Origin: a virus
Length of the DNA stretch: 36,554 nucleotides
Direction: 5' to 3' (one strand)
IMG/VR virus record: IMGVR_UViG_3300032087_002006
Location: 1 to 36,554 of that record
This document shows, piece by piece, positions 4,391 through 36,554 of the stretch (positions are counted from its first letter, which is position 1; each line of letters starts with the position of its first letter). The notes under the pieces are model-generated. The model was not told where the DNA came from, did no database searches, and saw nothing but the letters and a program-made list of their open reading frames with translations. The position numbers were made by a program, and so were the translations under genes.

Positions 4391-4633
4391 ATGAAGAAAC
4401 GCGAACAACTAGAAGAACTTCAGGTCTTACTTGCCGACACCTACCGTAAAGTTATATCCGATATGGATCTTGACGATCCTAATGCGGCGATTTTAAACGG
4501 AGCTAGGCAATTCCTAAAGGACAACGATATTATCAGCGTAACCGAGAAGTCTTCACCGCTTGGTAAACTCGCTGATGTACTCCCTTTTGACGAGTCCTCA
4601 CACACACAAGAAGCCCTTAGACAGTCGAAATAA
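4391..4633 (+). CDS. terminase small subunit (T7 gp18-like)
   Basis: This 80-residue protein has the AAILNGARQFLKDNDI segment (about residues 32-47) typical of the small DNA-packaging subunit of T7-like phages; T7 gp18 is 89 residues. It would recognise concatemeric phage DNA and load the large subunit. The gene is two bases after the adhesin stop, and its TAA shares a base with the ATG of the large subunit, so translation is likely coupled. No separate DNA-binding motif can be seen by eye. Confidence 0.85.
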   Translation: MKKREQLEELQVLLADTYRKVISDMDLDDPNAAILNGARQFLKDNDIISVTEKSSPLGKLADVLPFDESSHTQEALRQSK

Positions 4634-6309
4634 TGAACGAGGTTCCAGCGGAGCTTCGGGACTTCCGAAACTTCTTGTTCGTTTGTTGGAAGCACCTAGG
4701 TCTACCTGACCCTACACCGCTTCAGTACGACATTGCAAACTACCTACAATACGGCCCAAAGCGAGCAATCGTCATGGCGTTCCGAGGCGTGGGTAAATCG
4801 TGGATCTGTTCCGCCTATGTCGTCCACCAACTACTCCTAGATCCATCTAAGAATATACTCGTCGTATCGGCGTCTAAAACGCGTTCTGATGACTTCAGTA
4901 CCTTCACGCTTAGGTTGATCCATGAAATCCCCGTATTGGAGGGTCTAAAGCCACGAGACGGGCAACGCTTCTCTAAGATCTCATTTGATGTTGGCCCCGC
5001 TCCAGCGTCCCATGCACCGTCGGTTAAGTCGTTAGGTATCACCTCGCAGTTGACGGGATCTCGTGCCGATATAATCGTCGCTGATGACGTGGAAGTGGCG
5101 AACAACTCAGCTACCCAAGGAATGCGTGATAAACTATCTGACCAAGTAAAAGAGTTTGATGCTATCGTTAAACCGCTAGATACCTCCCGTATTCTATTCC
5201 TAGGGACACCTCAATGCGAAGACTCCATCTACAACAAACTAAGAGAGCGTGGATACGCCATTCGTATTTGGCCTTCGGAGTATGTCGGTTCCAAAAAGAA
5301 CACAACCATCTACGACGGCGCTATTGCCCCGTTTATAGACGAGAATACAACCGACGATAATATCGGGAAATCAACCGAGCCTTTACGGTTCTCTGACATC
5401 GACCTTGAAGAACGAAAGCTCTCATACGGAAGATCCGGGTACTCGTTACAGTTCCTCCTGAATCCCCGCCTAAGCGACGCTGATCGCTACCCGTTAAAGA
5501 TCAACGATCTAATCGTACATGACCTCGATAACGATGTGGCACATGAAAAGTATGTGTGGGCTTCGTCCCCTGACCTCGCTATAGGCGACCTTCCAAACGT
5601 CGGTTTTAACGGCGATAGGTTCTACCGTCCATTCCAAACACTAGGAGATATGGTCGAGTACACAGGCTCCGTTATGGCGATTGACCCATCGGGTCGTGGT
5701 CGCGATGAAACCGCCTATAGCGTCGTTAAGATGCTGAATGGGTTCCTGTTTGTACACGCTTGTAACGGCATTAAAGGCGGATACGGTGAGAACGTCCTTA
5801 ATGAACTAGCTCGTGTAGCAAAACGCTACAAGGTCAACGAAATCATTATTGAGTCCAATATGGGCGATGGTATGTTCACCGAGCTTTTTAAACCTGTTAT
5901 TACCTCCGTTTATCCCGTTACACTTAGTGAAGTAAGACACAATATTCAGAAGGAAAGACGGATGATAGACACGCTAGAACCCGTCTTAAACGCCCATAAA
6001 CTCGTCGTTGATCCCACCGTTATTAAACACGATTATCAAAGCCTAGCGTCATATCCTATCGAAATTCAAACACGATATTCACTTATGTACCAGCTATCAC
6101 GCCTTACAGCGGAGAAAGGATCTATCCTTCAAGACGACCGCTTAGACGCCTTAGCTATGGCTGTAGCTTATTGGGTACAACAAATGTCGGCTAACGCTGA
6201 CACGAAAATGAAAGACCGAAGAGAAGAACTCCTTAATGAAGAACTTGAAAGCTTCGTTAATAGTACCTTCGGAGTCAACAAATCTAAGTCTTCGTTAGTG
6301 TGGTTCTAG
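4633..6309 (+). CDS. terminase large subunit (T7 gp19-like)
   Basis: This is the packaging ATPase and nuclease, 558 residues (T7 gp19 is 586). The Walker A-like P-loop FRGVGKSW is at about 50-57, Walker B IIVADDVE at about 147-154, and a coupling motif LFLGTPQ at about 188-194. The RNase H-fold nuclease shows acidic residues in AIDPSGRGRDETA (Asp about 351), IIIESNMGDG (Glu about 408) and DDRLDALAMA (about 501-510). It would pump DNA through the portal and cut the concatemer at the genome end. In T7 this gene lies next to the right genome end, which makes the repeat-rich DNA downstream a candidate for the terminal region. Confidence 0.96.
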   Translation: MNEVPAELRDFRNFLFVCWKHLGLPDPTPLQYDIANYLQYGPKRAIVMAFRGVGKSWICSAYVVHQLLLDPSKNILVVSASKTRSDDFSTFTLRLIHEIPVLEGLKPRDGQRFSKISFDVGPAPASHAPSVKSLGITSQLTGSRADIIVADDVEVANNSATQGMRDKLSDQVKEFDAIVKPLDTSRILFLGTPQCEDSIYNKLRERGYAIRIWPSEYVGSKKNTTIYDGAIAPFIDENTTDDNIGKSTEPLRFSDIDLEERKLSYGRSGYSLQFLLNPRLSDADRYPLKINDLIVHDLDNDVAHEKYVWASSPDLAIGDLPNVGFNGDRFYRPFQTLGDMVEYTGSVMAIDPSGRGRDETAYSVVKMLNGFLFVHACNGIKGGYGENVLNELARVAKRYKVNEIIIESNMGDGMFTELFKPVITSVYPVTLSEVRHNIQKERRMIDTLEPVLNAHKLVVDPTVIKHDYQSLASYPIEIQTRYSLMYQLSRLTAEKGSILQDDRLDALAMAVAYWVQQMSANADTKMKDRREELLNEELESFVNSTFGVNKSKSSLVWF

Positions 6310-6598
6310 TTATAAACGCGTTTAAAACGAGCTTATTACGAACACTTAGGTAAGCTTTGATTTATTCAAAGATTGTAAGTCTATTAGTAATAATCGAAAT
6401 TTAAAGGTCGTTATAAACGAAGCTTTGACGATGACGACTTATAACTTTAGATTTAAATCAAATGTTAGTCATAACGGAAGTTATAATCGTCGGTCATAAC
6501 CGCGAAGCAAACTCGTATAATACGCTATCGCTATATACTCTATTTTAATCGAGTTTTCAAAATGTCAATCCTTAACTTTTTAACTGTGCCATAAGTCT
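6310..6598 (+). other. A+T-rich intergenic region after terminase
   Basis: No gene is seen in these 289 bases. The 10-mer GTTATAAACG begins in the last base of the terminase gene (6309-6318), recurs at 6410-6419, and has a variant GTTATAATCG at 6480-6489. GTCATAAC occurs twice near 6467 and 6495. A perfect TATAAT lies at about 6514 without a convincing -35 box. The region could hold an early promoter or part of the genome-end repeat, but neither is demonstrated. Confidence 0.4.
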
Positions 6599-6796
6599 AT
6601 GAATATCAACGAACAAACAGATGCATTTTTATTCGAGTTACAAAACGTTGTAAATCGTTTCAGAGCCGAATATGACCTTAATCACGCTACAATCGTAGGC
6701 ACACTTGAGATCGTAAAGATGGACTATCTGATTGAAGGTGATGATGTTGAGTTCATAGCCGACGACGACATGGAGGACGAAGCTTGTGAAACTTGA
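6599..6796 (+). CDS. small acidic conserved phage protein
   Basis: This 65-residue protein has a central helix HATIVGTLEIVKMDYLIEGD and a strongly acidic tail (DDVEFIADDDMEDEACE). The TIVGTLEIVK pattern is, from memory, seen in short uncharacterised proteins of many T7-like phages. The 3' end overlaps the GTG start of the next gene by 11 bases, so the two are probably translated together. There is no signal peptide or membrane segment. Function is unknown. Confidence 0.65.
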   Translation: MNINEQTDAFLFELQNVVNRFRAEYDLNHATIVGTLEIVKMDYLIEGDDVEFIADDDMEDEACET

Positions 6797-7103
6797 TGAG
6801 AACACACAGATAAAAGCGAACGCCACTTTCGCCGCCAAACTCGTCGTAGGAATCATTACGGCGGTGTGGTCATATAGTGTCATCGTAAACAGGATCTCCG
6901 CCCTTGAACTCGAAATAGTACGCCTTAAAGACGACATCCATTTAAACAGCGAATTTAGGGTACAGTGGCCTCGCGGAACTATGGGCGCATTACCTGACGA
7001 CAGTGAACAGAACATGAGGCTGGACTTCTATGAGCGAGAGCTGGAAAAGTTTAAAGCTATCGTTGATGATATGAGGTTCAAGCGCCTAGAAAACAGTGAG
7101 TAA
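6786..7103 (+). CDS. membrane-anchored small protein with WPRG motif
   Basis: This 105-residue protein starts at GTG within the end of the preceding gene. One hydrophobic segment (about residues 16-36, AAKLVVGIITAVWSYSVIV) is followed by a charged helix, then FRVQWPRGTMGALPDDSEQN and a second coiled-coil-like helix. The one-pass, N-in layout with a long extracytoplasmic helix resembles inner-membrane spanins, but no partner lipoprotein is evident. The W-P-R-G ... LP-D-SEQ pattern is, from memory, conserved in small membrane proteins of aquatic T7-like phages. A lysis role is a hypothesis. Confidence 0.65.
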   Translation: MKLDENTQIKANATFAAKLVVGIITAVWSYSVIVNRISALELEIVRLKDDIHLNSEFRVQWPRGTMGALPDDSEQNMRLDFYERELEKFKAIVDDMRFKRLENSE

Positions 7104-7218
7104 CTGCCAGCACGAATGGCGGTGGATGATCGCGTTAGGGATGTTCTTCCTCGAAAGAGACGCGATTATGGACGTTGCGTTCATGCTGATAGAGATCGTG
7201 ATACGAGCGACGTCGTAA
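7096..7218 (+). CDS. possible 40-residue ORF overlapping the preceding gene
   Basis: A GTG at 7096, eight bases inside the previous gene, opens a 40-codon frame: MSNCQHEWRWMIALGMFFL followed by ERDAIMDVAFMLIEIVIRATS. It is Trp/Met-rich with two short amphipathic or hydrophobic helices. The overlapping start fits the local style, but there is no recognised family and the start codon is weak, so it may be an accident of the overlap. Confidence 0.4.
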   Translation: MSNCQHEWRWMIALGMFFLERDAIMDVAFMLIEIVIRATS

Positions 7219-7234
7219 GGGCGTTGTAAACGAC

Positions 7235-7278
7235 GCTTTAGGAGCGGTTTAGGCGAGCTTTAGGCGCGTTATGGGCGC
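7235..7278 (+). repeat. degenerate 11-bp tandem array, four units
   Basis: Four consecutive 11-bp units read GCTTTAGGAGC, GGTTTAGGCGA, GCTTTAGGCGC and GTTATGGGCGC. Units 1 and 3 differ at one position and unit 4 is the most diverged. The 11-bp period is close to one DNA turn, so a protein binding each unit would sit on one face of the helix, as in iteron or packaging-site arrays. The function is not known. Confidence 0.6.
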
Positions 7279-7290
7279 GTCCAAAAGGTT

Positions 7291-7319
7291 TTGGTACAAA
7301 AATCTGAGGGGGTTATACT
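7291..7319 (+). promoter_or_regulatory. possible sigma70-like promoter
   Basis: TTGGTA (7291-7296) and TATACT (7314-7319) are separated by 17 bases; they match TTGACA at 4 of 6 and TATAAT at 5 of 6 positions. No plus-strand gene follows for almost 3 kb. If active it would make a short structured RNA or oppose the minus-strand operon. Chance matches of this quality are common, so confidence is low. Confidence 0.3.
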
Positions 7320-7402
7320 AGCGTGTGGGTTGCGGAATCCCCCCTTGACCCCCTTAAAAACTAGCGAATGGGGTGGGGGTGGCCTCAATCTGTGTCGTAA
7401 GT

Positions 7403-7440
7403 CGTTGATATTCAACGGCACACAGCGGATATCGTATCCG
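7403..7440. repeat. two adjacent perfect hairpins
   Basis: CGTTGA-TAT-TCAACG (7403-7417) is followed eight bases later by CGGATA-TCG-TATCCG (7426-7440). Both have 6-bp perfect stems and 3-base loops. The first is nested in a wider imperfect arm, TGTGT (7391-7395) with ACACA (7420-7424). No T-run follows, so these are not ordinary terminators. Tandem cruciform-type sites suit a nicking, packaging or replication-control site, or a structured RNA. Confidence 0.6.
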
Positions 7441-7624
7441 ATTGCAACGGGATCCAAGCGGCGGCAACGCGGCGCCTTTATCTTTACCTTTATCGGTGTT
7501 TTTTTGGCTCGCCTTAAAACGCGATAAAGACCGCCGCCTAAAACGCGCCGTTTCCTCGCCGTAAAGCCGCCTTAAAACGCGTTTTAATCTTTCCGTGTAT
7601 ACTAACTAAGGCCAGCCTTTGCCG

Positions 7625-7641
7625 CCGTTTAAAACGCGTTA
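7625..7641 (+). repeat. left copy of 17-bp flanking repeat
   Basis: The 17-mer CCGTTTAAAACGCGTTA here matches CCGTTTAAACCGCGTTA at 9928-9944 in 16 of 17 positions, in the same orientation. The pair brackets the whole minus-strand gene block. Because the core AAAACGCG is repeated several times locally, this may reflect a shared motif rather than an insertion duplication. Confidence 0.4.
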
Positions 7642-7665
7642 AAAGCCGCCGCTAAATCTAGGCAC

Positions 7666-7687
7666 AAAAAAGCCGCCCGAAGGCGGC
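7666..7687 (-). terminator. Rho-independent terminator with UUCG loop
   Basis: Read on the minus strand: GCCGCC, TTCG loop, GGCGGC, then TTTTTT. This is a perfect 6-bp G+C stem closed by the exceptionally stable UUCG tetraloop and followed by six T. It lies about 30 bases past the stop of the last minus-strand gene (7718-7864). It therefore fixes the direction and end of that operon and shows it is built for host-type RNA polymerase. Confidence 0.88.
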
Positions 7688-7717
7688 GATTAAGGCGGCG
7701 TTTAAAACGCGGCGAGG

Positions 7718-7864
7718 TTAGAGTGAACGGGATCCAGCGCTAAGCATTAAGAAACAAATTACAAGCCATAAGATCCCGCCTATAATTGCAACGGCGGCTG
7801 TGACTATCTTTTCTTGCCGGGAACGAATAGGGAAGCCGCAAGAGTCTACTTTATCTTTTTTCAT
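7718..7864 (-). CDS. 48-residue single-pass membrane protein
   Basis: This short frame reads MKKDKVDSCGFPIRSRQEK, then a hydrophobic helix of about 21 residues (IVTAAVAIIGGILWLVICFL), then MLSAGSRSL. The positive N-terminal segment predicts a cytoplasmic N-terminus. It starts 22 bases downstream of the GP88-like gene stop, with an A-rich leader ending ATAAGAAA before ATG. It is the last gene before the terminator at 7666-7687. A holin-like, toxin-like or superinfection-exclusion role is conceivable, but no family is recognised. Confidence 0.7.
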   Translation of the reverse strand: MKKDKVDSCGFPIRSRQEKIVTAAVAIIGGILWLVICFLMLSAGSRSL

Positions 7865-7886
7865 TTTCTTATATTTTGCTTGGTTA

Positions 7887-8594
7887 TTAGTTAAGAATAA
7901 AACCGCTGGTATCTTTTTTTGCCGTGCCTTTAGCTAATAGACCGACAACGTGCCCGGCTGGATCCAAAAAACGCAAATCATTCTTGTCACCGTCTAAAAC
8001 GGGAGCGCCTTGCCACTCATCCGGCAACCTATTTCGAAACACAGCGGCAACGTTCGCGCCGCGGCTCGCCAATTGCGCCGCCTTTGCACCGTTTGATTCG
8101 TCGCGGGAAAACGTCAGGCTGTAATTTTCGGGAAGGTTGCCGCTTAGATATTTTTCTATCCTGTGGGATCCCTTGCTATAATCGTAAAAAGGAACCGTCG
8201 GCAACGCGTCAATTATCCCATACTTTTCCCACGCAACGTCGCTGGTACCGTTCAGGCGCACGCTCAATCTATAGCCTTGCGACGCGCTCCAAACGACGGC
8301 CTTTTTTATTTCACTTTTCAGGATATCGACAAATTGCTGGGGATCCTTTTCGAATAGTTGCGTTTTTCTCAGGCGGCCCTTTTGAACCGTCGACATCTTG
8401 CCGCGGCCCTGATTAAAAAGACAGGCGTCTTTACAGGCTCCAGCCCACGGGCAAAGGTTTTTAGTTCCTAGCTGGCCCGCTGGGACAAGATAAAGAATAG
8501 CTGTAAGCCAGCCTAAGTCTTGCCCTTTTCGCGTTTTAGGATCCCCGCCGATTGCAAGTAAATCGTACCGTTTTGATATAGTTTTGCTTTTCAT
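7887..8594 (-). CDS. GP88-family protein
   Basis: This 235-residue protein is assigned by pattern to the family named after mycobacteriophage 'gene product 88'. In order it has GGDPKTRKGQ (16-25), YLVPAGQLGTKNLCPWAGAC (35-54), a Cys cluster C48-x5-C54-x3-C58, KGRLRKT (72-78), VRLNGTSDVAWEK (112-124), FYDYSK (136-141), YSLTFSRDESN (158-168), NVAAVF (181-186), DGDKNDLRF and GLLAKGTAKKDTSGF near the end. The family occurs in phages and plasmids; its biochemical function is, to my knowledge, not established. The Cys cluster suggests a metal site. I chose the ATG at 8594, four bases after the upstream stop; an in-frame ATG at 8651 would overlap the previous gene by 53 bases. Confidence 0.85.
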   Translation of the reverse strand: MKSKTISKRYDLLAIGGDPKTRKGQDLGWLTAILYLVPAGQLGTKNLCPWAGACKDACLFNQGRGKMSTVQKGRLRKTQLFEKDPQQFVDILKSEIKKAVVWSASQGYRLSVRLNGTSDVAWEKYGIIDALPTVPFYDYSKGSHRIEKYLSGNLPENYSLTFSRDESNGAKAAQLASRGANVAAVFRNRLPDEWQGAPVLDGDKNDLRFLDPAGHVVGLLAKGTAKKDTSGFILN

Positions 8595-8598
8595 TTTC

Positions 8599-8838
8599 TT
8601 AATTTGTTTCAATTTCGCCTGTAAGCCGCATCCTAAACTGCACTCCATCAATAAAGGCGTCGACGCGGCTTAATAGATCCCTTTTAGTTTTAGACTCAAT
8701 TCTAACAAAAGGGTGCTCTTTAGATTCAATTCTGTAATGTGCCGGGGCCTTTGTAATGTGCCAACTTGCGCCGCGCGTCCAAAGGCTCAAACGGTTTAGA
8801 GAATATTCTATATCTTTTTTGCTTATTTGTTTTTTCAT
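8599..8838 (-). CDS. small hypothetical protein of the minus-strand operon
   Basis: This 79-residue basic protein starts MKKQISKKDIEYSLNRLSLW and continues with ASWHITKAPAHYRIES, then TKRDLLSRVDAFIDGVQFRM. The plan of an N-terminal helix, short strands with a YRIES-type line and a C-terminal helix ending in a DAFIDG motif resembles short proteins I associate with plasmid and phage accessory regions. I cannot name the family. It lies two bases after the stop of the upstream gene, with GGAG about ten bases before the ATG inside that gene's end, so translation is probably coupled. Confidence 0.7.
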   Translation of the reverse strand: MKKQISKKDIEYSLNRLSLWTRGASWHITKAPAHYRIESKEHPFVRIESKTKRDLLSRVDAFIDGVQFRMRLTGEIETN

Positions 8839-8840
8839 GA

Positions 8841-9263
8841 TTAATAGGCTCCCATTGCGGATAATTTTGCCCGGTCTTTTTCAAGGTGTGCAAGATACGG
8901 TGCAAGCGGCGTTAAAATCTTATCGATTGCTTCAAAAGCTTGCCGCTGGCAATTATCCCAAAACATCATTGTGTGAACCTCAATTTTGTATGGATTTGCA
9001 TTGCTAGTCACAGCCCACCAAAGCGCCGTTGCGATAAGCGCGTTTTCCTCGTCGACTAAGGCGCGCTCCTTATTCATTGAAAACTTTTTCGCTAGCGTTG
9101 CCTTGCTGATTAAATAGCCGGTGCGTTGGTTAAATATTTCAGGCCATACCATTGCCAGCCGCGGCCCTGAGATCCATTGAGGCAACCTATCCCGCGTTAT
9201 TTTCGGGAAAGTGCTGGCAATTGTCTTAATTAGTAAAATACGGTTTTCTTTTGACGTTTCCAT
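8841..9263 (-). CDS. hypothetical protein of the minus-strand operon
   Basis: This 140-residue protein is mostly helical by composition and has no signal peptide. Notable segments are METSKENRILLIKTIASTFP, RDRLPQWISGPRLAMVWPEI, ISKATLAKKFSMNKERALVD and a hydrophobic EENALIATALWWAVT. The SKATLAKKFSMN stretch could be a helix-turn-helix-like recognition segment, but the match is weak. It begins three bases after the upstream gene's stop, with AGGAAA lying in that gene's last codons as the ribosome binding site. No family is recognised. Confidence 0.65.
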   Translation of the reverse strand: METSKENRILLIKTIASTFPKITRDRLPQWISGPRLAMVWPEIFNQRTGYLISKATLAKKFSMNKERALVDEENALIATALWWAVTSNANPYKIEVHTMMFWDNCQRQAFEAIDKILTPLAPYLAHLEKDRAKLSAMGAY

Positions 9264-9266
9264 TGC

Positions 9267-9461
9267 TTAGATTTCCTCGCTTTTTACTTCAAACTTGAAC
9301 CCCATTGCCTTAATTTCCTTCACGGCGTGCGGCGGCAATGTCTTTTTATTGATAAGCCGGGCAAAGGCGGCGGAAAGACAGCAATTAGGGTAAACTAGTT
9401 TATTGCCGTATTTAGTCTCAACCTTAACATATAAGGTATTTTTTACATATGGATTATTCAT
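9267..9461 (-). CDS. small hypothetical protein of the minus-strand operon
   Basis: This 64-residue protein has strands YVKNTLYVKVETKYGNKLVY, a PNCCLSAAFARLI helix with two adjacent cysteines, then KKTLPPHAVKEIKAMGFKFE. The design (two strands, helix, 'KTL ... IKAMGF', final strand) resembles short proteins of phage and plasmid accessory regions whose function I do not know. Its leader is one of the two copies of a 33-bp repeat, with AGAAAG about 10 bases ahead of ATG in place of a canonical Shine-Dalgarno sequence. Confidence 0.65.
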   Translation of the reverse strand: MNNPYVKNTLYVKVETKYGNKLVYPNCCLSAAFARLINKKTLPPHAVKEIKAMGFKFEVKSEEI

Positions 9462-9494
9462 TTTTTCGTTTTCTTTCTATTTTTGTGATTATTG
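9462..9494 (-). repeat. 33-bp leader repeat, copy 1
   Basis: This is identical to 9707-9739 over 33 bases. Read on the minus strand it runs CAATAATCAC, AAAAATAGAA, AGAAAACGAAAAA and ends at the ATG of the 64-residue gene. It contains the TAA stop of the preceding gene (9489-9491), so the whole 27-base spacer between the two genes is repeat. A conserved translational leader or a recent duplication are both possible. Confidence 0.85.
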
Positions 9495-9707
9495 ATTAAA
9501 TTTTTCAACCTCGCTTGCCAGCAATTCAAACACAGCACCGTTTTGGATGTCGTTTTCCTCGGCAAGCTTTAAAACGTTGCGGCTTTCATTAAGTAAAAAG
9601 GCGTCCCCAGCAATATAACCGTAGGCGGCAAAAGGGCCGTATCTTAATTTACTGAGTAATTCTAAGGCGTGGCTGTAAAGCGCGTTCTCTAATGTGGAAT
9701 TTTGCAT
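9489..9707 (-). CDS. first gene of the minus-strand operon, hypothetical
   Basis: This 72-residue protein, MQNSTLENALYSHALELLSK onward, has alternating helices, a central YGPFAAYGYIAGDAFLLNES stretch and an acidic C-terminal helix ending EVEKFNQ. No membrane segment or family is recognised. It is the promoter-proximal gene of the minus-strand operon. Its ATG follows the second copy of the 33-bp leader repeat. No convincing -10/-35 pair is visible upstream on the minus strand. Confidence 0.65.
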   Translation of the reverse strand: MQNSTLENALYSHALELLSKLRYGPFAAYGYIAGDAFLLNESRNVLKLAEENDIQNGAVFELLASEVEKFNQ

Positions 9708-9739
9708 TTTTCGTTTTCTTTCTATTTTTGTGATTATTG
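9707..9739 (-). repeat. 33-bp leader repeat, copy 2
   Basis: This exact copy of 9462-9494 directly abuts, and includes one base of, the ATG of the first gene in the minus-strand operon. Identity stops at both edges, so the unit is the leader itself rather than a longer gene duplication. Confidence 0.85.
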
Positions 9740-9927
9740 TTTTTTCCCGTTTTGAGCCCGGCGGCTGGATCCCTTAAAAACTAAGGCCGCAACCGTTGCA
9801 AGCTTTTTTTAAAACTTTTTATTTCAATGACCACCTTAAGGGATCCCTTGCAAGCGCTCAGGCGGCGGCTTTTTTCAACCATGCAAATCTAAACTAAAAC
9901 TTTAAAATTTCAAGGTAAGTAAAAGCA

Positions 9928-9944
9928 CCGTTTAAACCGCGTTA
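9928..9944 (+). repeat. right copy of 17-bp flanking repeat
   Basis: CCGTTTAAACCGCGTTA matches 7625-7641 in 16 of 17 positions and lies on the far side of the minus-strand gene block. It may mark a boundary of the block or simply be another copy of the local AAAACGCG-type motif. Confidence 0.4.
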
Positions 9945-10044: not shown

Positions 10045-10093
10045 TTTTACGTGTACGTGTTCGTGGCTAGACTTTTTACGTGTACGTGTTCGT
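10045..10093. repeat. duplicated 20-mer with ACGTGT hexamers
   Basis: TTTTACGTGTACGTGTTCGT occurs at 10045-10064 and again at 10074-10093, with a 29-base start-to-start distance. Each copy holds two head-to-tail ACGTGT hexamers followed by TCGT. Direct repeats with internal hexamers are typical of iterons or multi-site operators. Their position about 100 bases before the first early gene suggests control of early transcription or replication. Confidence 0.75.
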
Positions 10094-11407: not shown

Positions 11408-11745
11408 ATTGGGAGATCAAAGGCGACGATATAATCTTGCATGATTACGAAGCTGATCTTGCCCAAGGCGATTGGATGCACCTTACTGTCGAGTTTCCTA
11501 CTCGTGAAGAAGTCATAAAGGGCTTCGAGGAGTTTTGGAGAAAGAACGAAGTGAAGGAGTTTCCAAAGGACGAACACGGCAGAAACCTACGCGACGAGAA
11601 CGGCGATATAATCGTCATTAGAACCGACAAGCCAAGAGAGCGGAAGAAAGATCAACTGTACTTCCGTAATGAACGGCAAAAGGCGGTAGCTAGAGAACGC
11701 AAACGAATGCAAAAGAAAGAAAACGAAGACTATGAAACTAATTGA
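11404..11745 (+). CDS. conserved early protein with long basic coiled C-terminus
   Basis: This is a 113-residue protein. I chose the ATG at 11404, which overlaps the kinase stop, rather than an in-frame ATG at 11383 inside the kinase gene. The N-terminal half (MNWEIKGDDIILHDYEADLA, then QGDWMHLTVEFPTREEVIKG) is strand-rich, while the C-terminus is a charged helix rich in Arg/Lys/Glu (RNERQKAVARERKRMQKKEN). There is no recognised catalytic motif. The last 14 bases overlap the integrase start, so expression of the two is probably linked. Confidence 0.65.
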   Translation: MNWEIKGDDIILHDYEADLAQGDWMHLTVEFPTREEVIKGFEEFWRKNEVKEFPKDEHGRNLRDENGDIIVIRTDKPRERKKDQLYFRNERQKAVARERKRMQKKENEDYETN

Positions 11746-12547
11746 TTTAGCTGGAGAAGTATATGACCGACATTGGCGCGGGTGTAAGGATGGATTGGGA
11801 CTACTAAGGAACGCTGAAGACGTCTGTGACCGCATGGGAAGCGTGTCTGTGACGAAGCTGGACGAACGGAACATTGATGACCTCGTCTTGGATCTCGAAA
11901 GGGACGGCAAAGCAAACGCTACGATCAATCGTCGATTAGCGGCGTTAAGTAAGATGCTACAACACGCCTATCGTCGTCGATACATAGAAAGGCTACCCGT
12001 AATCGAAAGAAAGCGGGAGCCTGAAGGTCGTATGCGTTGGTTGACCAAGGACGAAGAGATCAGAATGATCGACAAGTTACGAGCCATGAAGCTCGATGAC
12101 ATCGCCGACTTCTGCATCGTGTTGATCGACACCGGGGCGAGGACAGGGGAACTGTTTAAGTTACAAGCCAAAGACATCGATCTTGACCAGCGTATGATGT
12201 ACCTAAGAAACACAAAGAATGGTAAGTCACGAGCTGTACCGCTCACATCGCGAGTCGTTGAGATAATGAGAGGGTGCATAAGGCAGACCTTTTTGTTCGA
12301 CTTCACACAAGACTCATTGAATTACCATTGGAAAAAAATGAAGTTCCTGATGGGCTTTGGCGACGACAAGGAGTTCACACCGCATTGTTTACGACACACT
12401 TGTGCGTCTAGGCTCGTTCAAAAAGGCGTTGATATATGTGTAGTACAGAAGTGGCTGGGTCACACCTCGATTCAAACGACGATGAGGTACGCCAAGATCG
12501 CGCCTAAAAACTTAGCAGATGCACGGGACATATTAGAAAGTCATTGA
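11732..12547 (+). CDS. int: tyrosine recombinase / phage integrase
   Basis: This 271-residue tyrosine recombinase has the full catalytic set: Arg137 in DTGARTGEL, Lys at about 162-165 in NTKNGKSR, His218-x-x-Arg221 in PHCLRHTCAS, His244 in KWLGHTSIQT and nucleophile Tyr253 in TTMRYAKI. An N-terminal SAM-like core-binding domain covers about 1-95. It would recombine phage attP with a host attB, often a tRNA gene. The place directly before the RNA polymerase is the same as in integrase-bearing pelagiphages and some cyanophages. It appears intact, implying a temperate option, but no attP could be identified nearby (42 bases to the next gene). Confidence 0.93.
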   Translation: MKLIDLAGEVYDRHWRGCKDGLGLLRNAEDVCDRMGSVSVTKLDERNIDDLVLDLERDGKANATINRRLAALSKMLQHAYRRRYIERLPVIERKREPEGRMRWLTKDEEIRMIDKLRAMKLDDIADFCIVLIDTGARTGELFKLQAKDIDLDQRMMYLRNTKNGKSRAVPLTSRVVEIMRGCIRQTFLFDFTQDSLNYHWKKMKFLMGFGDDKEFTPHCLRHTCASRLVQKGVDICVVQKWLGHTSIQTTMRYAKIAPKNLADARDILESH

Positions 12548-12589
12548 CAAGTTCTATATATCTTAGTTTTATGAAACGACACAACCAAT

Positions 12590-14995
12590 ATGGATCAATC
12601 AACTCTTAATCGCGACATGGTCGAGCAAGGAGTCGCTCGATATAGACGACGTGTTCAATCGGCTCGTGAACGCGGTAGTGAATCTGAAGCTCCGTACAGT
12701 ATCCGAATAATGCGGAACTACCTACCGCAGATTACGGAAGATGTAGCGAAAAGATTTGAGTTCCATCGCAAGTACAGACACGCCATACCCGCATTCATGC
12801 CGTTGATATGGAACATGGATGTCAATGCGTTGTGTTTGCTGGCGTTTAAAAGCGTCCTTGACGGCATTTGTGAGCGTCGTCCTTTGACTTCAGCGGCGAT
12901 ACGATTGTCGTCTTATATCGAGGATGAACTGCGTTACTGTCGCATGAAGGAAGAGTATCCTGATATTTGGAAGTATGCAGAGCGTGATCGTCTGAAGCAC
13001 AAAGGCAAAAGACGAAGCCGTGATGCGTGGTTGAGACACGATAAAGGCGAGACCCGCAAGGGTAACATGGAGCAATGGCGGACATGGACTCGCAAGGAAA
13101 AGCTAACGATGGGTACATGGTTTCTTGAGATCATCAGAACCAACACTCATGTCATCATGTTTCAAACGATCAGCGATGCTCCGAATAAAACAGTTTTATA
13201 TGTAACAGCAACTGAAGAACTATTTGATTGGATACAAGATTACAATAAACATTCAGAAGTTTTAAAACCTTTGTGGTTACCAACGGTGGAACCTCCGCAA
13301 GATTGGAAGTCTATTCTTGTTGGGGGGTACGATAAGAACGCGGGGGTTCCACCGCTTTGTTTCATCAAGTCATTCGACCATGACTACCTTGATAGCTTGG
13401 ATAAGAGCGAGCTGAAGCACGTCTTTGACGCGGTTAATCATCTGCAAAAGACGCAATGGCGCGTTAATAACGCCGTTTTAGACGTCGTCAGGTGGGCGTG
13501 GGAGAACAACAAAGAGATCGGCGATATGACCCGTCGTAGTGATTACGAGACACCGCCTTGGAATCCAGCGTATGAAACCGACGATGATGCTCGTAAAGAG
13601 TTTAGCCGTAAGTGCGGAGCTATCCACCGATTAAACATCAGCTTGAAGAGTCAGCGACTACACACGATTAAGCTGTTGTACATGGCTGATAAGTTTGAGA
13701 ACGAAGTCTTTTACTATCCGTACCACATCGACTTTCGTGGAAGAGTGTATCCGATCCCTTACTTTTTACAGCCACAAGGGAATGATCTTAGTAAATCGTT
13801 ACTCAGGTTCGCAATTAGCAAGGAAATAAAGACCGATGAGGACGCCAAATGGCTCGCTATTCACGGGGCTAATTGCTTCGGTAATGACAAGTTATCGTTT
13901 GATGAACGAGTTAAGTGGGTAAAATCCAAACGCCGTGAGATCGAGGAAGTCTACGAAGATCCAAAGACGAACGATTGGTGGGCATCCGCAGACAGTCCGT
14001 GGCAGTTCCTAGCGTTCTGTTTGGAGTGGGGTGAGTACCTCAAGGTAGGTAAAGGTTTCCTAACGACGCTACCGTGCGCTATGGACGCGTCTAATAACGG
14101 CATACAAATACTCAGCTTGTTGGGACGAGACGAAGAAGGCGGACGTAGCACAAATGTAACACACAACGATACACCAGCAGATCTTTACGGCGAGATAAGC
14201 GACAAGGTAAACGAGGAATTGATGAAGCGAGCCAAGGACGGCGATCACATCTCGTCTGCATGGCTGAAGTTTGGAGTGGATCGGAAGACGACAAAGCTCC
14301 CGGTCATGGTCAAGCCATACGGCGGTACACGATATTCGTGTCGTGACTTAGTCCAACAATGGTACAACGACAAGTGCAAGAAGTTGGAACTCGATCCATT
14401 CGGGTATGAAGCGACAGTAGCAATCGGGGAACTATCGCAGATCATTTGGAACACGATGAATGCCAGCTTGAGAAAGCCCAATAAAGTTATGGCGTGGCTA
14501 CAGCAAGCGATCAGAGTCGTGAACAAGGACGATAAGTATGTGGAATGGACGACGCCTTTAGGATTTCGTGTTCGTCAGAGATACTTCGCTACCAAGATGC
14601 AGAGAATACAGACGCTGTTGGGCGATAAGATCTCGTGGATTAACTATCACTTACCGCTTGAAGGCGTCGATAAACAACGACAAGCCAATGCGATCAGCCC
14701 TAACTTCGTTCACAGCCTCGATGCAAGCGTCGCTCAGAAGACTGCGATAATGGCGAAGGCACAGGGGATTGATTCGTTGGCTATGGTACACGACAGTATA
14801 GCAACTCATTGTACAGAATGTCGTACATTAGGTAAAATCATTCGACAATCTACCGCTGATATATTTTTAACCGATCAACTCGCAAAGTTTCGCGACGAGA
14901 TCACACAACAAACCGAGAGGGAGTTACCTGAGTTGCCGACATACGGATCATTAGATCCTAAAGCGGTGCTAGACTCAGCATACTTCTTCGCATAA
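12590..14995 (+). CDS. single-subunit DNA-directed RNA polymerase (T7 gp1-like)
   Basis: This 801-residue polymerase (T7 is 883) transcribes middle and late phage genes. It contains DFRGRVYP at about 381-388, motif A PCAMDASNNG with the metal-binding Asp at about 499, motif B RKTTKLPVMVKPYG at about 565-578 (Arg, Lys, Tyr, Gly conserved) and motif C AMVHDSIATH with the second Asp at about 735. The N-terminal domain is shorter than in T7. Cognate promoters are unknown; two candidates lie at 9946 and 9990. The gene is the defining marker for a T7-like phage. Confidence 0.97.
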   Translation: MDQSTLNRDMVEQGVARYRRRVQSARERGSESEAPYSIRIMRNYLPQITEDVAKRFEFHRKYRHAIPAFMPLIWNMDVNALCLLAFKSVLDGICERRPLTSAAIRLSSYIEDELRYCRMKEEYPDIWKYAERDRLKHKGKRRSRDAWLRHDKGETRKGNMEQWRTWTRKEKLTMGTWFLEIIRTNTHVIMFQTISDAPNKTVLYVTATEELFDWIQDYNKHSEVLKPLWLPTVEPPQDWKSILVGGYDKNAGVPPLCFIKSFDHDYLDSLDKSELKHVFDAVNHLQKTQWRVNNAVLDVVRWAWENNKEIGDMTRRSDYETPPWNPAYETDDDARKEFSRKCGAIHRLNISLKSQRLHTIKLLYMADKFENEVFYYPYHIDFRGRVYPIPYFLQPQGNDLSKSLLRFAISKEIKTDEDAKWLAIHGANCFGNDKLSFDERVKWVKSKRREIEEVYEDPKTNDWWASADSPWQFLAFCLEWGEYLKVGKGFLTTLPCAMDASNNGIQILSLLGRDEEGGRSTNVTHNDTPADLYGEISDKVNEELMKRAKDGDHISSAWLKFGVDRKTTKLPVMVKPYGGTRYSCRDLVQQWYNDKCKKLELDPFGYEATVAIGELSQIIWNTMNASLRKPNKVMAWLQQAIRVVNKDDKYVEWTTPLGFRVRQRYFATKMQRIQTLLGDKISWINYHLPLEGVDKQRQANAISPNFVHSLDASVAQKTAIMAKAQGIDSLAMVHDSIATHCTECRTLGKIIRQSTADIFLTDQLAKFRDEITQQTERELPELPTYGSLDPKAVLDSAYFFA

Positions 14996-36484: not shown

Positions 36485-36554
36485 CTCTGTTCAAACACAC
36501 TCCAATGATTATGTTTGATACAATATTTCAAGAGTCCAGAATACTTTTCATTAT
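36485..36554 (+). other. non-matching tail of the window
   Basis: The last 70 bases are A+T-rich. They hold no gene start and do not continue the gp16-like protein in its own frame. The +2-shifted frame stays open to the end (about ITLFKHTPMIMFDTIFQES) but does not look like the family. A real gene end, a frameshift or a chimeric/low-quality end are all possible. Confidence 0.4.

Follow-up and report, generated by a model that had tools for sequence, protein, structure and literature searches.

Organisation of the minus-strand cassette

The window, i.e. the whole stretch of 36,554 nucleotides analysed here, is a metagenomic contig of a T7-like temperate phage with replication genes, connector, scaffold, capsid and internal virion proteins. 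It begins inside the tail genes and carries, after the packaging genes and ahead of the early genes, a cassette of six tightly packed minus-strand open reading frames (ORFs; 7718-9707) that are separated, from c1 to c6, by 27, 3, 2, 4 and 22 bases. The initial annotation had described six consecutive minus-strand genes followed by a UUCG-loop terminator in an otherwise plus-strand genome. This was confirmed by an ORF check, which returned the same coordinates, and by a gene caller trained on the core genes, which placed every gene outside the cassette on the plus strand. The features of the locus and of its genome setting are:

4391-6309, plus strand: terminase gene (genome setting)
7218-7712, strand not applicable: non-coding; contains repeats of TTTAGG and TTTAAAACGCG as well as the block GGTTTTGGTACAAAAATCTGA (7287-7307), which is conserved
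7687-7672, minus strand: intrinsic terminator with UUCG loop (GCCGCC-UUCG-GGCGGC-UUUUUU) that closes the operon
7718-7864, minus strand: c6, 48-aa single-span tail-anchored membrane protein (KIVTAAVAIIGGILWLVICFLMLSA), final gene of the operon
7887-8594, minus strand: c5 = GP88 (PF17338, phrog_1617), 235 aa, ATG start
8599-8838, minus strand: c4, ORF of 79 aa that occupies the variable slot separating c3 from GP88
8841-9263, minus strand: c3, 140 aa, predicted all-helical
9267-9461, minus strand: c2, conserved 64-aa protein
9489-9707, minus strand: c1, ORF of 72 aa specific to the window, with a copy of the c2 leader ahead of it
9764-9829, minus strand: conserved non-coding block with CTTGCAACGGTTGC (minus orientation) upstream of the operon, candidate leftward promoter
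10045-10093, strand not applicable: direct-repeat pair TTTTACGTGTACGTGTTCGT between the divergent units, candidate operator
11732-12547, plus strand: integrase gene (genome setting)
12590-14995, plus strand: RNA polymerase gene (genome setting)

For four of the six genes the coding nature follows from the distribution of substitutions over codon positions. In GP88, 123 of 180 substitutions relative to the relative L016 fall on third codon positions; the corresponding fractions are 29/43 for c2, 80/155 for c3 and 33/68 for c6. These patterns show purifying selection on GP88, c2 and c3 and a weaker one on c6. For GP88, a longer product from a TTG start at 8651 is an alternative. The c1 ORF is supported as a gene by its structure and by its score as coding under the core-gene codon model; c4 fails the same model and is supported solely by ORF structure. 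No homologue of c1 or c4 was detected; for c1 there was neither a family match nor a cluster partner. An A-rich leader of c2 is duplicated ahead of c1 (51 bases, 9447-9497 and 9692-9742, 86% identical), possibly a trace of how a new gene was added.

Searches against family profiles revealed no integration, replication or packaging gene among the six, and these profiles together with defence profiles gave no match to a known takeover or anti-defence gene; none of the six proteins matched a PADLOC defence profile at E 0.1. An Rfam scan returned no RNA family, and a DNA-level search for isolates close to the cassette produced only a chance match of 33 bases.

Flanking non-coding regions

A region of 480 bases with conserved blocks separates the cassette from the first plus-strand gene. 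The block at 9764-9829 is 80-84% identical to relatives (blastn) and has invariant bases in an alignment of seven sequences; it is our candidate for the leftward promoter. The TTTTACGTGTACGTGTTCGT repeats, which are followed by a CTTGCA element ahead of the first plus-strand gene, may serve as operator, and we propose, as a candidate arrangement, divergent host promoters with this operator between them. A scan with the sigma-70 consensus found sites no more frequently than in shuffled sequence and supported no specific promoter, and a search of the intergenic regions for repeated 20-mers yielded no convincing promoter motif for the phage RNA polymerase. GGATCC occurs ten times in the window, eight times within the cassette region (7450-9841); these sites were considered as operators and dropped, as they are not conserved in relatives.

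On the other side, relatives have a similar ACAAAAAAGCCG-type terminator after the cassette, and the initial reading of a separate transcription unit is supported by its own strand, its own terminator and a conserved divergent region of promoter-like character, with a content that is accessory and fast-changing. The block GGTTTTGGTACAAAAATCTGA (7287-7307) is conserved in relatives, and the region 7218-7712 is a candidate for a natural genome junction or terminal repeat region. By analogy to T7-like phages, the site of the cassette is where the linear genome would have its left end. One related contig (L019) ends in a tandem repeat region just beyond its homologue of g6786, which is compatible with a genome terminus and no proof of one. 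The ends of the window itself (1-168 and 36485-36554) show no in-frame join and no end repeat was found between them; the contig may lack a segment that would link the internal virion gene to the tail fibre gene. Palindromic TTTAAAACGCG-type motifs recur around the cassette and after the terminase gene (6305-7712, 9926-9940). In the window and close relatives the integrase has 271-278 aa; that of L025, L028 and L047 is longer (341-345 aa). The segment 11404-11745, considered as a MarR-like regulator in analogy to HTVC134P, had no family match.

Conservation and turnover in related phages

Environmental relatives (n=80) were retrieved by their terminase, and 35 informative rows entered a terminase tree. 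The window and its eight nearest rows without exception have a minus-strand cassette at the same site, and the cassette label changes four times on the tree compared to 11.2 times in shuffles. Altogether the window and 17 other members of the lineage have the cassette between terminase and early genes. More distant relatives are heterogeneous: GP88 is on the minus strand in L048, L051, L055, L062 and L174 and on the plus strand in L053, L057 and L083; L019, L025, L034 and L039 have minus-strand cassettes of other small genes; L028, L046 and L047 have no minus-strand run. The identity of GP88 falls in step with that of the terminase (88/83, 70-74/69-75 and 60/69-70%), as expected if GP88 descended vertically in the lineage. 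Judged from these comparisons, the cassette is old and no recent insertion.

The initial annotation had inferred an acquired module and named two findings that would speak against it. One, an assembly chimera at the cassette edges, is unlikely because the same layout occurs in several contigs from different metagenomes. The other, that all six genes are vertically conserved core genes, applies in part: c2, c3, GP88 and c6 recur in close relatives with order and position unchanged, which does not hold for c1 and c4. A search of bacterial genomes for prophage relatives gave four terminase matches, all on contigs of metagenome-assembled genomes (MAGs) and the closest with 65% identity. In this closest one (L187, 37.8 kb, Rhodospirillaceae MAG bin) the terminase is followed by three minus-strand genes (12555-13192), one of which weakly resembles the plus-strand g6786 of the window.

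Within the conserved position the gene content is exchanged. Nothing lies between c3 and GP88 in L016 and L014; other members have unrelated ORFs at this junction, of 79 aa (c4 of the window), 97 aa (L012) and 65 aa (L015); in L174 a 56-aa ORF is present. The c2 protein is 59-83% identical in relatives including L023, which has no GP88: between c2 and c6 of L023, a 53-aa ORF and a 313-aa phrog_7247 protein replace c3 and GP88. The same swap was observed in a second lineage, the Rhizobium T7-like phages TRX32-1, with GP88 in the slot, and RHEph01, with phrog_7247, in both cases followed by four downstream genes that are 87.5, 96, 93 and 99% identical. No phage name was common to GP88 and phrog_7247 among the matches listed, for which the chance expectation is also below one, so that this observation carries little weight. 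In its sequence organisation, the cassette is best described as a fixed frame with continually remodelled contents.

The constant component of this frame is the tail-anchored membrane protein and not GP88. Homologues of c6 in close relatives are 42-60% identical over the alignment, and exactly one small tail-anchored protein is encoded in 17 of the 18 cassettes, the lone exception (L063) being cut by the contig end. Of the small proteins that these loci encode on the plus strand, 1 of 110 is of this type (Fisher p = 2.5e-8, an optimistic value as the loci are related). The tail-anchored proteins share a strongly hydrophobic C-terminal segment with a tryptophan in mid-segment and split into several sequence families, which may reflect either divergence beyond recognition or replacement by look-alikes.

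The GP88 and c3 proteins

GP88 matches Pfam PF17338 with E 1.5e-43 and 149.8 bits (cut-off 24.4; residues 20-233) and phrog_1617 with E 3.5e-67. In agreement with the initial annotation, the family recurs in phages and plasmids, although it is sparse in the latter: a pattern search of viral contigs gave more than 600 matches, and 264 annotated phage records contain it, next to a few plasmids. An alignment of 75 sequences has C48, C54, C58, R113, N115, D119, Y137-D-Y, N157, T161, S163, D206 and R208 as invariant positions, and the cysteines form an equally invariant C48-X5-C54-X3-C58 motif (CX5CX3C). The AlphaFold2 model (mean pLDDT 93.0) is a partial (beta-alpha) TIM barrel in which the three cysteines lie in the loop after the first barrel strand. 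Comparison with PDB folds gave no significant match (best E 0.16), the weak ones including several radical SAM entries; among viral structures, the matches were further GP88 proteins and, at a weak level, putative radical SAM proteins. The model would be consistent with an enzyme, and the three cysteines possibly bind a metal or an Fe-S cluster. A sequence search of solved structures with the GP88 alignment gave one weak match, to a complex I assembly factor (residues 107-184, E 6e-4), which was judged to be due to chance.

The model of c3 is helical (pLDDT 81.2) and had no Foldseek match in the PDB. Wherever c3 occurs, a gene of the GP88 family follows downstream, either directly or after a single intervening gene. 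c3 was found in none of the annotated phages; in viral contigs, a single-sequence scan gave 0 and an alignment-based scan 9 matches. No c3 turned up in the remaining GP88 loci, so it is an optional partner of GP88. In L176 (7983-8961) a c3-like gene overlaps a gene of the GP88 superfamily, on the strand opposite to a terminase of unrelated type.

GP88 and phrog_7247 in other phages

In 16 of the 27 phages listed, GP88 lies within 5% of a record end (p = 4e-10 under uniform placement, where record starts are partly conventional and some of the phages are related). GP88 is at the left end in the isolates HTVC134P and HTVC309P and within the same terminase-to-integrase interval in S42C7 and TRX32-1. 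XacN1 has GP88 in two places; the listed one, at 25 kb, is enclosed by the direct terminal repeat of 66 kb (PMC5852040). phrog_7247 occurs in the annotated terminal repeats of Caulobacter phiCbK-like phages and near the left end of RHEph01. In the cluster A mycobacteriophages Kampy and Caelakin, GP88 is the second gene from the right end and is read leftward. RNA-seq of Kampy at 5 min of infection found expression largely confined to genes 82-88 (PMC4626039); gene 87 is the GP88 homologue, about 36% identical, of a phage unrelated to that of the window.

Possible functions of the cassette

Genes at the entering end of a genome are often expressed first, and we therefore favour, with somewhat better than even confidence, a pre-early operon of accessory genes that serves host takeover and lies at the natural left end of the genome of this temperate T7-like phage. 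Host RNA polymerase would start in the divergent region (9.71-10.19 kb) and read leftward to the terminator at 7687-7672, and the conventional early genes would be read rightward from the same region. The operon would deliver a small tail-anchored membrane protein in every lineage and an exchangeable soluble effector, here GP88 together with the helical c3. In the first minutes these products would target the defences or the physiology of the host, or else a second phage; a counter-defence role is possible. Several findings run counter to this pre-early operon: GP88 has the direction of the early genes in Kampy and in the pelagiphages and the opposite one in the window, the sigma-70 scan remained at the level of shuffled sequence, the Kampy homologue is distant and its phage unrelated, and the cassette has no match to known takeover or anti-defence genes. 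A more far-reaching version, possible although somewhat doubtful in our view, is a kind of pre-early module that has no name yet, in which a constant mini-membrane protein with mid-membrane tryptophan is combined with an exchangeable effector, either GP88/c3 or the unrelated phrog_7247, both with an equivalent task at the end of the genome that enters the cell first.

Many exclusion proteins are small membrane proteins, and the constant product of the cassette is likewise a small membrane protein. Together with the integrase of the phage and with a variable unit that has its own strand and terminator between oppositely read units, this would fit a moron-like operon for lysogenic conversion or superinfection exclusion, with a promoter of its own that is active in the prophage when the rightward lytic genes are off; the membrane protein and GP88 would then protect or modify the lysogen. 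We regard this as rather unlikely, since GP88 is also present in large phages and in the phage CRP-143, for which the annotation of the left region shows no integrase, and some integrase-bearing relatives (L028, L047) lack any minus-strand cassette. In addition, the right-end promoter Pleft of cluster A phages is repressed in lysogens (PMC5712189) and the GP88 region of Kampy is read at 5 min of infection. Expression in lysogeny, as suggested in the initial annotation, is possible, but Kampy is the one family member for which expression data were found, and these point to the first minutes of infection.

A loosely selected gene sink at the genome junction, where small genes are tolerated without a common role, would explain the fast turnover with several unrelated ORFs in one slot and the many products without family match. 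It is difficult to reconcile with purifying selection on the GP88, c2 and c3 families, and the constant tail-anchored protein and the repeated exchange of GP88 and phrog_7247 speak for constrained roles, so that we consider a gene sink improbable. Least convincing is a recently acquired foreign module or a small satellite, the latter also named in the initial annotation. The opposite strand and skewed short words such as GGATCC (8/10 in the region) are in its favour, but the presence of the cassette at the same place in all nearest relatives, with the few changes on the terminase tree, and the identity of GP88 that tracks that of the terminase speak against a recent insertion, and a satellite would be expected to bring integrase, replication or packaging genes of its own, of which there are none inside. 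Both variants are very improbable.

Comparison with known systems

Radical SAM enzymes share with GP88 the predicted partial (beta-alpha) barrel and the cysteines after the first strand, and viperin and NifB are among the weak fold matches; GP88 differs by its CX5CX3C motif, which is neither the classical CX3CX2C motif nor an accepted variant of it, and by the lack of a significant PDB fold match. Moron or lysogenic-conversion units resemble the cassette in independent orientation, own terminator and variable content; here, the terminator was found and a promoter is suggested by conservation. In contrast to morons, the cassette stays at one site throughout the lineage and is present, not absent, in the nearest relatives on the terminase tree.

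In Kampy and Caelakin, GP88 likewise is read leftward, second from the end and in the earliest transcribed region, but all right-arm genes of Kampy share the direction of GP88, and the host is actinobacterial. The temperate marine Autographiviridae HTVC134P, HTVC309P and Sieqvirus S42C7 also have GP88 between the terminase and the MarR-integrase-RNA polymerase genes; in these phages GP88 lies on the plus strand, and a DNA methylase gene comes after it. The class I genes 0.3-0.7 of T7 are, like the cassette, small accessory genes of rapid turnover before the phage RNA polymerase gene. They lie by the left genome end, which would also be the position of the cassette: its place in the gene order, between terminase and RNA polymerase, fits, and the terminus is a candidate. 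The cassette differs from class I in being on the minus strand, opposite to the rest of the genome, in having its own terminator and in lacking a homologue of a known takeover gene. Taken together, the cassette is probably a takeover kit and a foreign insert is disfavoured. GP88, a protein of hundreds of phages, thereby gains candidate partners (c3 and the constant membrane peptide), a swap with phrog_7247 and a probable time window, and T7-like phages can retain a divergent, leftward accessory operon over long times.
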